Part shown: piece by piece, positions 45,685 to 55,341 of the stretch
Layout: each line of letters starts with the position of its first letter
Position numbering within the stretch: the first letter of the stretch is position 1
Notes under the pieces: model-generated
Seen by the model: the letters and a program-made list of their open reading frames with translations, nothing else
What the model was told of the DNA's origin: nothing
Database searches by the model: none
Program-made: the position numbers and the translations under genes
Assembly: GCF_013760955.1 (NCBI RefSeq)
Contig: NZ_JACDUL010000004.1
Coordinates: 62,001-126,000, forward strand
Length of the DNA stretch: 64,000 nucleotides
Origin: Methanococcus maripaludis
GTDB lineage: Archaea > AGJL01 > Methanococci > Methanococcales > Methanococcaceae
Direction: 5' to 3'

Positions 45685-46269
45685 TTAATAGTCTTCACAT
45701 TGCTTTTCAAAGTATGCTGTTGGGTGTCCACATGAAGGGCATTCAGCTGGCGCGTCCTTGTCTTTTACCAGATATCCACACTTCCTACAGGTCCAGTAGA
45801 TCTCTTCAGCTTTTTTAAACATTGAATCTTTTTCAATTTGTTCTATTAATTTTTTGTACCTTTGTTCGTGGTGCTTTTCAGCTTCGGCAATCGCAAGAAG
45901 CCTATCTGAAATTTCAGCCAGTCCTTCTTCTTTTGCTATTTTTGCAAATTCTGGATACATTTGAGTATGTTCGTAATTTTCCCCAGATGCTGCTTCTTTT
46001 AAATTTTCTATCGTTGTTCCGTATGCTGTTGGAACTGCTGCTCCATCGATTATGATTTCAGCAGGGTTGCCGTTATCTTTTTTGAGCGAATCAATTAATC
46101 TAAATAACCATTTAGCATGTTCTCGCTCTTGTTCGGCCGTCATTGTAAATATTTCAGCTATTTTTTCGTAGCCTTCTTTTTGAGCTATCTTTGCATATAT
46201 TGTGTACCTATTTCTAGCTTGACTCTCCCCAATAAATGCTTTTGAAAGATTTTCGATTGTTTTCTGCAA
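45685..46269 (-). CDS. rbr: Rubrerythrin
   Basis: A 194-residue non-heme diiron peroxidase that detoxifies H2O2 in anaerobes. The N-terminal ferritin-like domain has ESQARNRY and [19 protein letters not shown] ligand sets. The C-terminal rubredoxin-like domain has CRKCGY and [11 protein letters not shown]. The best start is a TTG after GAGGTGAGTGC, giving the usual N-terminus [17 protein letters not shown]. An upstream in-frame ATG would add 14 atypical residues. It is next to the iron-uptake region. Confidence 0.93.
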
Positions 46270-46376
46270 AGCACTCACCTCTTTTGCGATGCAGTAATTT
46301 ATAAAATTCATTTTATATATTATTTATACATTTGAATCGTTAAAACAGGAATCAAAGCGTTATTTAAAAATAGAAA

Positions 46377-47717: not shown

Positions 47718-48122
47718 TTACTTTAAATTTATTTTGTAGCCATGTGGACACTTTTCGGGGCGATCTATAAATTCATATAACTTTTCGATTGTTTTGTCAG
47801 ACACAGCATGCTCTATTTTACATGCCTCCTCTTGTGCAAATTCCAAATCAAGACCTAAAATTTCAGTTAAAAAACACTCGATAATCCTGTGCTTTCGAAT
47901 GGTTTCTTTTGCAATTTTTTCGCCAGATTCTTTGAGATTTATTCCAATGTACGGCTGGTAATCTATCAATCCGTCACCGTGCAACTTTTTAGCCATACTT
48001 GTTACTGCGGCAGGCTGAACATTCATTAATTTTGCAAGTTCAGTTGTTTTTATCGGCCTTTTATTTTCTCTTATGAATAAAAATATATTTTCAAGATAAT
48101 CTTCGATGTTTTGGGATACCAA
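47718..48122 (-). CDS. DtxR/MntR-family metal-dependent transcriptional repressor
   Basis: A 134-residue regulator. The winged helix (RPIKTTELAKLMNVQPAAVTSMAKKLH) is followed by the dimerisation/metal-binding segment with IRKHRIIECFLTEILGLD and EEACKIEHAVSD, which hold the usual His/Glu/Cys ligands. There is no SH3-like third domain. The start is a TTG after GGTGGTTAGT; the in-frame upstream ATG would put TATA-like sequence into the coding part. It is divergent from feoA, and a palindrome lies between them, so it probably represses feo and perhaps itself. Confidence 0.88.
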   Translation of the reverse strand: MVSQNIEDYLENIFLFIRENKRPIKTTELAKLMNVQPAAVTSMAKKLHGDGLIDYQPYIGINLKESGEKIAKETIRKHRIIECFLTEILGLDLEFAQEEACKIEHAVSDKTIEKLYEFIDRPEKCPHGYKINLK

Positions 48123-48171
48123 ACTAACCACCCAATGGAAAAATATATATAGTTTCAAAATATTATAGAAT

Positions 48172-48204
48172 TTAAGTTAAGTTAAATTATTTAATCTATC
48201 TTAA
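48172..48204. promoter_or_regulatory. Candidate metal-repressor operator between dtxR-like gene and feoA
   Basis: A 33-bp imperfect palindrome centred at 48188, with arms TTAAG...CTTAA and core TTAAATTATTTAA (48182-48194). The arms match at all but a few positions. It lies in the divergent promoter region. The same 13-base core occurs again at 48503-48515. Confidence 0.6.
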
Positions 48205-48234: not shown

Positions 48235-48441
48235 ATGGAAAATCTTTTGCACAAAGACCCTGGTTCATACATAGTAGTTAAGGTTGAAGGACACTGTAGA
48301 AGATTTTATGAACTTGGAATTCTTCCAGGTTGTAAAATAACCTTGATATCCAAAACTGACCGGGGCCCAGTACTTATAAGAGTTGGAAACTCGAAAGTAG
48401 CTCTTGGAAGAGGCATGGCCGAATCTATTTTTGTAGAATAA
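48235..48441 (+). CDS. feoA: FeoA family protein
   Basis: A 68-residue SH3-like protein needed for FeoB-dependent ferrous iron uptake. GHCRRFYELGILPGCKITLISK and GPVLIRVGNSKVALGRGMAESIFV match FeoA closely. The start ATG follows GGTGGTCAT. Between its stop codon and the Cys-rich peptide gene there is a 109-base gap with its own palindrome, so feoB may also be transcribed separately. Confidence 0.92.
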   Translation: MENLLHKDPGSYIVVKVEGHCRRFYELGILPGCKITLISKTDRGPVLIRVGNSKVALGRGMAESIFVE

Positions 48442-48500
48442 TTTAAAAAAATTTATTTAGAAAAAATCATAACCTAATTTACGAAAAAATATTTAACCAT

Positions 48501-48517
48501 GCTTAAATTATTTAAGC
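48501..48517. promoter_or_regulatory. Perfect 17-bp palindrome before the Cys-rich peptide and feoB
   Basis: GCTTAAATTATTTAAGC has perfect 8-base arms around a central T, and symmetry continues imperfectly out to about 37 bp (TTTAACC... and ...GGTAAAA). It follows a TATA-like AAAATATTTAA (48486-48496) at the spacing where transcription should start. The core equals that of the feoA/dtxR site. Confidence 0.65.
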
Positions 48518-48550: not shown

Positions 48551-48688
48551 ATGGAAACTTTAAAAAAAGAGAAAAAGGAGAATCTTATTGAAAAAATTCT
48601 CGTTAAAATTTCAAAAAATATTGTGAAAGCCAGCTGTTCATGCTGCAGCGAGAAAAAAAACTGCAAAGGAAAATGTAATACTGAATAA
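48551..48688 (+). CDS. Feo-associated Cys-rich small protein, 45 residues
   Basis: A 45-codon gene between feoA and feoB, starting at an ATG after GTGTGATTCAAT. The N-terminal two thirds are a basic amphipathic helix (KKEKKENLIEKILVKISKNI). The last part is Cys-rich: CSCCSEKKNCKGKC, five Cys in 14 residues, suggesting Fe-S or metal binding. FeoC and the FeoB-associated Cys-rich proteins of bacteria are analogous by position and Cys content, but sequence similarity is not evident. The feoB start is 15 bases downstream. Confidence 0.72.
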   Translation: METLKKEKKENLIEKILVKISKNIVKASCSCCSEKKNCKGKCNTE

Positions 48689-48702: not shown

Positions 48703-50646
48703 ATGGATGAAAAAAATATTGTTGCACTACTCGGTCAGCCCAATGTTGGAAAAACTACCCTTTTTAACCACCTAACTGGAATGAAACAGAGAATTGGAAA
48801 CTGGCCCGGCGTTACTGTTGAAAAAAAAGAAGGTTTTTTTAAAAAAAATAATGAAAACTATATTGTAGTCGATTTACCCGGAATATACTCATTAATGTCT
48901 GATTCGATCGATCAGAAAATTGCAAGAGATTATATTGTTGAAAATAGCGAAATTACTGTAATTGATGTAATTGACACCCCAAATATAAACAGGAACCTTT
49001 ATTTAACCATACAACTTTTAGAACTTGGAATAAGTCCAATTTTATGTTTAAATTTAATCGATGAAGCGGAAAAATTTGGAATTTATGTAAATGACCAGAA
49101 ATTAAGTGAAAAATTAGGCGTTCCCGTAATAAGAACATCAGGAAGGCTTAAAATAGGTATTGATAACTTAAAAGAATCACTCCATCAATACAAGCCTGTA
49201 GAAGCTGTAAAAATTAGCTATTCTTCATTACTAGAAGAAAATATCGAAAAAATAGTCGATAAATTAGAAGATGGTTCATATAAACTATCTGAAATTTATG
49301 AAAGACTTCCTAAAAGATGGATTGCAATATCCCTTCTCGAAAAAGACCCTGATGTCGTAAATGAGTTTTCAAAATATCCCGAATTTATAAAATTTGTAAA
49401 AGACCTGAAAATTGAAATTGAGAACGAAATAAAACACGATGTCGAAAGCTACGTTGTAGAACAGAGATACAAAAAATGCGATGAAATTTTAGCAGGCGTC
49501 ATGGTAAATAGTGAATTGTACGAAGATATTGACACTATTGTGATTCATCCAGTTTACGGGAGTTTGATATTTGGAGTAATATTATACACGATGTATAATT
49601 TCGTATTCGGGTTAGGGGACATATTTTCAGGATTTATCGGATCATTCTTTGAAATCCTTGGAAATTACTTAATGAATATCCTTCCAGAATCAATTTCTGG
49701 AGTAATTGTAGATGGATTACTTGCAGGAGTTGGTGGAGTTCTTGAATTCTTCCCACTAGTATTCTTAATAATGTTTTCACTTTCAACCCTTGAAGATACA
49801 GGTTACTTATCAAGAGTCACAGCTTTAACGCACTCGATCATGTCCAAAATGGGATTAAGTGGAAAATCATTTATTCCAATGATTACTGGTTTTGGATGCA
49901 GTGTTCCGGCATTAATGGGCACAAGGTTTATTTCAAGCCATAAAGAAAGGTTAATTACGCTTTTAGTAACGCCACTTGTTCCCTGCTCTGCAAGATTCGT
50001 CATTATCGGATTTTTTGCATCATTTTTCTTTGTAGAACATGCTGCACTCTTTACATTGGGCATTCTTGCAATTACATTTGCAATGCTCTTCATGGTGTCC
50101 TATTTATTAAGTAAATTCATAAAAGGAGAATCTGAAGAATATATATTTGAATTACCGCCATATCGAACTCCTGATTGGGACAATATCATTAAAATGACCT
50201 GGGAAAAAAGCAAAGAATTTCTAAAAAAAGCAGGAACTGTTATTGCTGCAGGCTCCCTTTTATTCTATGGCCTTATAAATTATCCATCTCCTGATGCAAA
50301 TTACGCCGCGGTTGTTGGAAAAATTCTTGAGCATGTAACATTGTATATGGGACTCGACTGGAGGGCTGCAATATCACTTATATTTGGAATATTTGCAAAA
50401 GAACTGGTTGTTTCAAGTTTTAGCATATTGTATCCTGAAAATATTGCAACAGCATTCAGTCCATTAAAAGCTTTCGTATTAACGCTTGTTTCAGTACTCT
50501 ATATGCCGTGCCTTGCAACACTTGCAACACTTTACCTTGAAACACGAAGTTTGAAATGGACCGCGTTTGGGATAGGCTATAATTTAGTACTCGCAACAGT
50601 TGTTGGAATAATAACATACAATTTAGGAACAATGCTTGGCTTTTAA
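48703..50646 (+). CDS. feoB: Ferrous iron transport protein B
   Basis: A 647-residue Fe2+ transporter. The N-terminal G domain has G1 GQPNVGKTT (9-17), G3 DLPGIYSL (about 54-61) and G4 NLID (about 118-121), followed by a GDI helical domain. The C-terminal membrane part has two Gate repeats (GFGCSVPALMGTRF near 402-415 and MPCLATLATLYLE near 604-616). I start at the ATG after GGTGAATAGA. It is transcribed with the Cys-rich peptide and probably controlled by the palindrome at 48501. Confidence 0.96.
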   Translation: MDEKNIVALLGQPNVGKTTLFNHLTGMKQRIGNWPGVTVEKKEGFFKKNNENYIVVDLPGIYSLMSDSIDQKIARDYIVENSEITVIDVIDTPNINRNLYLTIQLLELGISPILCLNLIDEAEKFGIYVNDQKLSEKLGVPVIRTSGRLKIGIDNLKESLHQYKPVEAVKISYSSLLEENIEKIVDKLEDGSYKLSEIYERLPKRWIAISLLEKDPDVVNEFSKYPEFIKFVKDLKIEIENEIKHDVESYVVEQRYKKCDEILAGVMVNSELYEDIDTIVIHPVYGSLIFGVILYTMYNFVFGLGDIFSGFIGSFFEILGNYLMNILPESISGVIVDGLLAGVGGVLEFFPLVFLIMFSLSTLEDTGYLSRVTALTHSIMSKMGLSGKSFIPMITGFGCSVPALMGTRFISSHKERLITLLVTPLVPCSARFVIIGFFASFFFVEHAALFTLGILAITFAMLFMVSYLLSKFIKGESEEYIFELPPYRTPDWDNIIKMTWEKSKEFLKKAGTVIAAGSLLFYGLINYPSPDANYAAVVGKILEHVTLYMGLDWRAAISLIFGIFAKELVVSSFSILYPENIATAFSPLKAFVLTLVSVLYMPCLATLATLYLETRSLKWTAFGIGYNLVLATVVGIITYNLGTMLGF

Positions 50647-52843: not shown

Positions 52844-53077
52844 ATGGCAGCAATTGAAGTAGGAAGAGTTTGCATCAAAACATTAGGAAGAGAAGCAGGA
52901 AACACCTGTGTTATCGTTGAAGTATTAGACAAAAACTTTGTAGTTATCGACGGTGGCGTTAAAAGAAGAAGATGCAACTTAAAACACGTTGAACCAACTG
53001 ACAAAAAAGTTGACTTAGAAAAAGCAGCTTCAACCGAAGAAGTTAAGTTAGCTTTAGATGCAGCAGGCTTATTATAA
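52844..53077 (+). CDS. rpl14e: 50S ribosomal protein L14e
   Basis: A 77-residue KOW-fold ribosomal protein. IEVGRVCIKTLGREAGNTCVIVE and FVVIDGGVKRRRCNLKHVEP are diagnostic. The start ATG follows GAGGTAATAATT. It is separated from cmk by 82 bases, so it may have an extra promoter, but cotranscription is normal for this cluster. Confidence 0.96.
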   Translation: MAAIEVGRVCIKTLGREAGNTCVIVEVLDKNFVVIDGGVKRRRCNLKHVEPTDKKVDLEKAASTEEVKLALDAAGLL

Positions 53078-53189
53078 CTCCAAATCAGTGCTAAAATCGC
53101 ACTCTAATTTCTTTTTTTAGAATATTTAAAAAAATTTAAAACTGTTTTAAACTTAAACTAAATTTAAAAAAAAATTTATATTTAAAAAT

Positions 53190-53591
53190 TTAATCATCTG
53201 TTTCAATTAATTTTCCAGCGTCTTCTCCAGGTTTTACGCTGTAAATGCTTGTAATTGTAATAACAATTGCTCCTTTTGGAGTTAAACCAGGAATTTTTGC
53301 TTTGTTTAATTCTTTTGCTTTTTCATAGTATTCTCCATCAGTTACAATCTCAGCTTTTCCCTTGTACTGGAATGGGTGTGCCCTACAGTCTGCGACATTT
53401 ATTGCAACAACCGGATTTTCTTTGATATTATTGAGAGTTTTGTTCATGAAATTATCTGAAATTACGAGTTTATCCCCAACAAACTGGTTTGCACCCATTG
53501 GAGCAACGTTTGGAACCCCATCTTTTGAAGATGTTGCTAAAAATAAAAGACCTGTTATATCAGTTTTCATTTCTTCTGTTAACTTAACCAT
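53190..53591 (-). CDS. Pyridoxamine 5'-phosphate oxidase family flavin-binding protein
   Basis: A 133-residue split-barrel protein. LLFLATSSKDGVPNVAPMGANQFVGDKLVISD (about 15-46) is the FMN-binding strand set of PNPOx-like proteins. RAHPFQYKGKAEIVTDG follows near 70-86. These proteins bind FMN or F420 and act as small oxidoreductases or scavengers; the reaction here is unknown. The start follows GGGGATATAA. It is downstream of the AIM24 gene on the same strand (63-base gap). Confidence 0.85.
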   Translation of the reverse strand: MVKLTEEMKTDITGLLFLATSSKDGVPNVAPMGANQFVGDKLVISDNFMNKTLNNIKENPVVAINVADCRAHPFQYKGKAEIVTDGEYYEKAKELNKAKIPGLTPKGAIVITITSIYSVKPGEDAGKLIETDD

Positions 53592-53654
53592 TTATATCCC
53601 CTTTTCTGTTTTTATTTTCAGTTTATTTTTTGATTTGTCATTATTTAAACTTAA

Positions 53655-54323
53655 TTATCCTTGTTTTGGTGTTGGAAGGTACGGAGTTATGAAATCAATG
53701 AAACTTTCGATATTTCTGGTCTGAATATAAACTTTACCCGTTCCGCTGAAATTGTAGACTAAACCTTCGCCACCAAGAAGTGTTGATTTTAAACCGCCCA
53801 CTTTTCCAAGATTATATTTTAAATCACCGGTAAATGCAACTAAATTTCCATTATCGACCATTATTGATTCATTGTCTAATTCTATTTCTTCGATTGCACC
53901 GTATGATGATAAAAATACATCTCCTGAACCTTCAATTTTCATTAAAAAAAGTCCTTTTCCACCGAAAAATGTTTTTCCACCACCAAATTTCGTATCAATT
54001 GATAAATCTGGTGAAGATGCTAAGTACGCACCGCTACTTGCATATAAGGTTCCATTGAGTTCATGGTGAATTATATCTCCAGAAAATCCCGGTGCAAGTG
54101 CAAGTTTTCCAGAACCACTTAATTTATTCATAAATATGCTTTCTCCAACAACTGCCCTTTTTAAAACACCTAAAACTCCGCCTTTAGCAGATGTTTCGAT
54201 ATTTACCCCAACATCTTTATAAACCATTGAACCTGTTTCTGTCATTATTTCCTGATTGTTTAAGTTTATTTTTAAAAGGGAGTATGAAGGTCTGCTCGTT
54301 ATTTCAAAATCGTAGTCTGCCAT
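53655..54323 (-). CDS. AIM24 family protein (TIGR00266)
   Basis: A 222-residue protein of the AIM24/TRAP-like beta-barrel family. It shows the usual run MVYKDVGVNIETSA, RAVVGESIFMNKLSGSGKLAL near 53-73 and VFLSSYGAIEEIEL near 134-147, with repeated Gly-rich turns. Its biochemical role is unknown; bacterial homologues have been linked to membrane integrity. The ATG follows GGTGAAAAC. Confidence 0.9.
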   Translation of the reverse strand: MADYDFEITSRPSYSLLKINLNNQEIMTETGSMVYKDVGVNIETSAKGGVLGVLKRAVVGESIFMNKLSGSGKLALAPGFSGDIIHHELNGTLYASSGAYLASSPDLSIDTKFGGGKTFFGGKGLFLMKIEGSGDVFLSSYGAIEEIELDNESIMVDNGNLVAFTGDLKYNLGKVGGLKSTLLGGEGLVYNFSGTGKVYIQTRNIESFIDFITPYLPTPKQG

Positions 54324-54386
54324 GTTTTCACCAACCTAGTTCTTTATATTAATATCAAAACTGTATTTTATATATCTTCGCTTTAA

Positions 54387-55295
54387 TTATTTTTTAAATC
54401 TTAATTTATAGAGTTTTTTAGATAAATCCAATAATAAATCCCTATTTTGAAGGTTTGATATCCAATTTTCAGGAATATTTGATATTCCATAATATGCCCC
54501 TGCAATTGCCCCGTACATACTTCCCATGCTGTCAGTATCCCCTCCCGCATTTACACAAGAAATCATTCCATCTTTAAAGTTATCAGTTCTTAAAAACGTT
54601 GCAATTGCTGAAGGAACACATTCAATTGCAGGAAGCCCAGTATTAAATAACTCATAAGCTTCTTCAGCTGAATTTAACTCATTTATAAGGAGTATTTTCT
54701 CAGAAAAGTCGTAAGAAACTTCTTCAATAAATTTTGCACATTTTTTAATGGATTTTTCAGATTTGACATTATTTACTGACTCTGCAACAAAAAATGCGAT
54801 TGAAAGAGCACCGGCAATTGCTTCATCGTTGTTATGGGTTAATTTTGTAGCACTGATTGTTATTTCCTTTAATTTTTCGTATTCTCCAAAATAAAAAAGT
54901 CCTAGTGGCCCAACCCTCATTGAAGAGCCGCATGTTCTAGAATCACAACCCGTTTTATCCCCTTCAATTAATTTTTCGATCGCTTTTGTACTCGTTGGCC
55001 CCATTCCAACCGGATCATTGTTGTACCACTTTATTAATTCCTCGATAAAAATATCATTATTAAAACCTTTTTCATCAAAAGAATTCAGTATTGCAATTGT
55101 TTGATCCGTATCGTCAGTATACTGTCCTGCTTTTAAAATTCCATTAAATTTATTCAGCGGATCTACAAAATTATCGATTATTCCGTATTTTTCTGCAATT
55201 TCTTCTTTTGTAAACCATTCTGTTGGCATACCGAGTGCGTCCCCGATAGAAAGCCCCAAAATGCTTCCCTCAAACTTTTCAAGCATTTTGTCCAT
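54387..55295 (-). CDS. ADP-ribosylglycohydrolase (DraG-like) family protein
   Basis: A 302-residue hydrolase of the DraG/ARH family. The metal-binding motifs are visible: GLSIGDALGMPTEW (about 14-27), QYTDDTDQTIA (about 58-68) and NAGGDTDSMGSMYGAIAGA (about 253-271). It would remove ADP-ribose from protein or hydrolyse a related nucleotide. The link to nitrogenase control (dinitrogenase reductase-activating DraG) is not supported locally, as no draT is present. The start ATG follows TTGAGGGATATT; an in-frame TTG upstream is part of that site. Confidence 0.9.
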   Translation of the reverse strand: MDKMLEKFEGSILGLSIGDALGMPTEWFTKEEIAEKYGIIDNFVDPLNKFNGILKAGQYTDDTDQTIAILNSFDEKGFNNDIFIEELIKWYNNDPVGMGPTSTKAIEKLIEGDKTGCDSRTCGSSMRVGPLGLFYFGEYEKLKEITISATKLTHNNDEAIAGALSIAFFVAESVNNVKSEKSIKKCAKFIEEVSYDFSEKILLINELNSAEEAYELFNTGLPAIECVPSAIATFLRTDNFKDGMISCVNAGGDTDSMGSMYGAIAGAYYGISNIPENWISNLQNRDLLLDLSKKLYKLRFKK

Positions 55296-55341
55296 AATAT
55301 CCCTCAAAACATTTATAATTCAAAATAACAATATTTAAATC

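Follow-up and report, generated by a model that had tools for sequence, protein, structure and literature searches.

A small cysteine-rich gene of Methanococcaceae feo loci and its possible part in Fe(II) uptake

Between the genes for FeoA and FeoB of Methanococcus maripaludis lies a frame of only 45 codons, here called X, which raises two questions: whether it is a protein-coding gene, and what its product might do for the Feo Fe(II) importer. The window was the whole stretch of DNA analysed, 64,000 nucleotides long, and its features at the feo locus are as follows.

47718-48158, minus strand: gene for a DtxR-family iron-dependent repressor, divergent from feoA (PF01325 and PF02742 above cut-off)
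48182-48194, plus strand: operator-like palindrome TTAAATTATTTAA upstream of feoA (exact match)
48235-48441, plus strand: feoA, 68 aa (PF04023, E = 9.9e-15)
48482-48496, plus strand: BRE/TATA-like element CGAAAAAATATTTAA, putative promoter of X-feoB, read from the sequence and kept for the most part in the two nearest species
48501-48517, plus strand: perfect palindrome GCTTAAATTATTTAAGC in the gap from feoA to X, containing TTAAATTATTTAA
48541-48545, plus strand: GTGAT, ribosome-binding-like site of X, 5 nt before the ATG
48551-48688, plus strand: X, a 45-aa protein with a basic helix and a C-x2-C-x5-C(-x3-C) motif (ORF, conservation, AlphaFold2 model)
48703-50646, plus strand: feoB, 647 aa (TIGR00437, E = 6.4e-160; PF02421, E = 1.2e-60)

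Reading frame and selection on X

The frame starts with ATG and its translation is METLKKEKKENLIEKILVKISKNIVKASCSCCSEKKNCKGKCNTE*, with five cysteines (C29, C31, C32, C38 and C42). The GTGAT pointed out in an earlier note on this DNA was present five bases ahead of the start codon, and GTGAT or GTGGT stood at a roughly equal position before X in the nearest two species. A gene for a rubrerythrin-like protein, also read from the sequence, lies near the feo operon (window 45685-46311, minus strand).

The cysteine motif gave little information on coding. The pattern C-x2-C-x3-5-C occurred in 6 of the 397 small ORFs of the window, compared with 1.3 on average after dinucleotide shuffling, so the motif by itself is weak evidence for a gene, and it is conservation that settles the matter. 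Amino acid identity of X was 89% and 84% to the two nearest species, with the changes mostly at third positions, and the dN/dS ratios (NG86) were 0.054/0.485 and 0.039/0.436, that is 0.11 and 0.09, respectively. X is under purifying selection, with dN/dS of about 0.1 against these species. The pair G004-G005 gave 0.06, while G004-G006 gave a less strict 0.36. The DNA alignment of three species ran through X without internal indels until the last codons, while the gap upstream of it held several; in one species a one-base shift in the last codons altered only the end of the tail. The small Cys-rich gene proposed earlier between feoA and feoB is therefore real, as shown by the ORF at 48551-48688 (plus strand), the purifying selection and the orthologs in feo loci.

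Protein anatomy and distribution of the X family

The amphipathic basic helix described in the earlier note was borne out, with a best 14-residue moment of 0.69 (shuffle p = 0.009) and a helix over residues 2-28 in a single-sequence AlphaFold2 model, followed by a short helical turn at 30-33 and a Cys tail in loose coil. Mean pLDDT was 84-94 over residues 1-20. The moment was above shuffles in most members of the family, not in all. X has no transmembrane span, the maximum 19-residue Kyte-Doolittle mean being 0.70 (0.28-1.16 across the family). Feo linkage, a helix and an invariant C-x2-C-x(3-9)-C were common to the family.

The frame is kept in related genomes, and in an alignment of 15 sequences, one of them a relic, only C29, C32 and C38 were invariant, with C31 and C42 variable. 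The five-Cys tail proposed earlier thus holds for X of the window but is a species detail. Spacing was mostly C-x2-C-x5-C. Some members carry no more than three Cys, so that a [4Fe-4S] cluster would have to keep one site open or borrow a ligand. The MAFFT columns shift the motif in G004 to G006, where by eye the last three Cys also fit C-x2-C-x5-C.

Scans of X against Pfam and NCBIfam returned no family over cut-off, and a PDB profile search gave no match. A weak Pfam match to the SWIM zinc finger (16.3 bits, cut-off 19.6), together with the basic, Cys-rich composition, is what would favour a role of X in regulating iron genes as a small zinc-ribbon-like or DNA-binding protein. This is very unlikely, given that X has no conserved His, only three invariant Cys and no DNA-binding fold in the AlphaFold2 model, that the SWIM match recurred in none of the five relatives scanned, and that the feo locus already has its DtxR repressor.

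Across 36 genomes of the order Methanococcales (the "phylum" set consisted of the same 36 genomes), profile searches combined with a reading of the feo neighbourhoods yielded 15 intact copies of X and one relic. The intact copies belonged to 13 Methanococcaceae genomes: G000 (two), G001 to G006, G022, G023 (two), G029, G033, G034 and G035. Orthologs were present at feo loci in all seven genomes of the genus. All intact copies were found in feo loci, of two FeoB types, or beside a gene for a FeoA-FeoA protein, and the majority sat between feoA and feoB. The window genome has the complete feoA-X-feoB unit in two copies; the second operon (L077, G000:C4, about 53000-55300) lies outside the window and its X reads MKKSENLFENLIVKLSKLTIKASCSNCSNKSCICSKSAFKR. 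The relic, in G003, has no standard start codon and lies near the same tpi-like gene that borders the window genome's second feo operon. A 68-aa protein is encoded downstream of feoB in that operon (L077:1263-1469, minus strand), and a similar one beside the relic (L084:2739-2945, minus strand), where feoA and feoB are both gone.

X was not found in one Methanococcaceae clade, and in the 14 Methanocaldococcus-type genomes no profile match was convincing, although very divergent copies could escape profile and motif. Five feo loci read through in Methanocaldococcus-type genomes held no X-like ORF, a profile search of genome contigs with the small X alignment returned no relative, and FeoB had no X nearby in G021, G026, G028, G030 and G032. 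The range of X outside Methanococcales was judged from 80 FeoB loci only. The conservation across Methanococcales feo loci that the earlier note had looked to was thus seen in many Methanococcaceae, whereas the Methanocaldococcus-type genomes and the one Methanococcaceae clade did not show it. On the FeoB tree, the presence of X required 4 changes compared with 8.9 in shuffles, a clustering to which close relatives add. The pattern fits an early presence of X in the type-I FeoB clade followed by a few losses.

Two further proteins were seen at these and other feo loci. In Methanocaldococcus-type and other genomes, a hydrophobic protein of about 140-156 aa is encoded shortly after the second FeoB type (L104:4340-4768, L105:4170-4610, L109:3616-4041 and L110:4553-5023), and in L114 and in Methanocalculus (L122) a protein of comparable size comes after FeoB. 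A divergent FeoB-like protein of 576-609 aa with the motif GPPN.GKSVIFN is encoded near FeoA-like genes (L076:3323-5152, in G003, and L122:193-1923) and is possibly a separate FeoB subtype.

The order of the genes bears on a partnership with FeoA, in which X would act mainly with FeoA or the FeoA-FeoA protein and bridge it to FeoB. X follows feoA in most loci, and in G023, G029 and G034 one copy comes directly after a gene whose product has two FeoA domains (L108, L109 and L110). In G035, however, X stands directly before feoB and feoA lies elsewhere, and such a partnership was considered improbable as the main role of X.

Upstream elements and the Methanococcus voltae counterpart

The window genome carries nine exact copies of TTAAATTATTTAA, and three of these lie at feo genes. 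With up to one mismatch, 9 matches were counted in the window compared with 3.0 in shuffles, and 1 of 100 shuffles reached 9. Both feo palindrome sites are kept in the two nearest species, and the 13-base core also precedes X-feoB in G035, away from feoA. The palindrome at 48501-48517 is probably an operator, with the DtxR-type regulator as the predicted binder. Its position before X, with the TATA-like element just upstream, suggests that X and feoB can also be transcribed separately. Sigma-70 and terminator scans gave nothing, the RNA hairpin at the palindrome was unremarkable (z = -1.48), and an Rfam scan placed no element at X.

A published proteomic study of Methanococcus voltae A3 describes Mvol_0976, a CX2CX2C protein encoded between FeoB (Mvol_0975) and FeoA (Mvol_0977) (PMC9431491). 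During growth on FeS2 (pyrite) it was 69-fold up, while FeoB was 14-fold and FeoA 211-fold up (PMC9431491). Mvol_0976 shares its gene arrangement and its CX2CX2C motif with X of G004 to G006. M. voltae also has two feoA genes, one of them beside dtxR as the numbering Mvol_0619 / Mvol_0620 implies, and the same holds for G004 and G005. Mvol_0976 very probably belongs to the X family, the match being made by gene order and Cys motif. The study, which detected Mvol_0976 as a protein, called it on the basis of BLAST "unique to M. voltae" (PMC9431491), whereas relatives were found here in 13 genomes; if the match holds, Mvol_0976 is not unique to M. voltae and that statement is corrected. The probable counterpart of X in M. 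voltae also responds to the iron source.

Detection of this protein also bears on the idea that X is a regulatory leader peptide or uORF through which feoB translation is tuned, with an amino acid sequence that hardly matters. X is indeed short and directly upstream of feoB, and in G002 its frame runs into the start of feoB. Purifying selection on the amino acid sequence, the three genomes with X after FeoA-FeoA genes and away from feoB, the detected M. voltae protein and the empty Rfam scan make this idea hardly credible.

Conservation, paralogy, the shared operator-like palindrome and the proteomic data published for its probable M. voltae counterpart speak for a role of X in iron uptake. 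One form of this role would be an iron acceptor or chaperone, with X receiving the Fe(II) or iron-sulfide species that emerges from FeoB and passing it to Fe-S assembly or storage, with no regulation of FeoB. The thiolate tail, the feo linkage and the strong pyrite induction in M. voltae, in which FeoA, X and FeoB all rose (PMC9431491), agree with iron delivery. No iron-transfer partner was recognised in the X loci, however, genomes without X manage, and the sequence does not separate delivery from a FeoC-like accessory role. Iron delivery was taken as rather unlikely; together with the FeoA partnership it is the main rival to the FeoC-like accessory role.

Proposed function and comparison with FeoC and PF12669 proteins

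The reading put forward, at a confidence just short of an even chance, is that X is a FeoC-like accessory of the Feo Fe(II) importer, docked by its helix, binding Fe(II) or an Fe-S cluster and adjusting FeoB. The short amphipathic basic helix would anchor X at the cytosolic face of FeoB or at the adjacent membrane, and the thiolates of the C-x2-C-x5-C motif would bind Fe(II) or the cluster. The metal-bound or empty state of X could then move FeoB activity or stability up or down with cell iron. In favour of a FeoC-like accessory were counted the feo linkage, the doubled operon, the dN/dS ratios, the three invariant Cys, the amphipathic helix, the palindrome and the induction of Mvol_0976. Counted against it were that the likeness to FeoC consists in Cys spacing only, and that several genomes run FeoB without X.

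A narrower proposal makes X a dedicated Feo part for growth on iron sulfide or pyrite, where it would bind an Fe-S cluster or iron-sulfide species at the FeoB exit. It is doubtful and was given a low probability; if true, Methanococcaceae would take mineral iron by a route not known in bacteria. Being small, conserved and invariant at three Cys, and present in tractable Methanococcus species, X makes FeoB control in archaea directly testable.

Two known families were considered and set aside. X does not qualify as a FeoB-associated membrane protein of PF12669, as it lacks a transmembrane helix and scores below cut-off, nor as FeoC (PF09012), since the model shows a helix over 2-28 and a tail in place of a winged helix and there is no Pfam match. 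The window X had no match to PF12669, the best relative reached 13.7 bits against a cut-off of 27, and PF12669 searches of the order and phylum sets (36 genomes) found none over cut-off, although one of the runs also lacked a match in any control genome and is uninformative alone. Two bacterial feoB-linked proteins do pass this cut-off. Matches to PF09012 in Methanococcales lay elsewhere in those genomes and none at the listed feoA or feoB places. In an earlier survey of FeoAB in methanogens, the main text makes no mention of FeoC (PMC8351635).

The Cys core of X nevertheless resembles that of both families. PF12669 proteins are mainly from Firmicutes and Bacteroidetes, and their translation and their kinship with FeoC have been posed as questions (PMC8749426). 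Like X, they are small and encoded next to feoB, with a helix followed by a Cys-rich tail and, in several members, a C-x2-C-x5-C core; unlike them, X has no transmembrane helix and mostly precedes feoB, and hhalign gave 40% over ten motif columns only. FeoC carries an Fe-S cluster and shields FeoB from FtsH (review, PMC10710835). It is likewise small and feo-linked, and a C-x2-C-x5-C loop was present in most FeoC-like proteins seen here, including one of Thermococcus (L112) just below the Pfam cut-off, whereas X differs in fold and gave 4% in the hhalign profile comparison. The earlier suggestion of an archaeal functional counterpart of FeoC or of FeoB-associated Cys-rich proteins remains plausible in view of the feo operon and the thiolate motif, a potential site for iron or an Fe-S cluster, while membership of either family by sequence does not hold. 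X may descend from FeoC or PF12669 or may have converged on the Cys cassette, and it plausibly works like the proteins of these two families.
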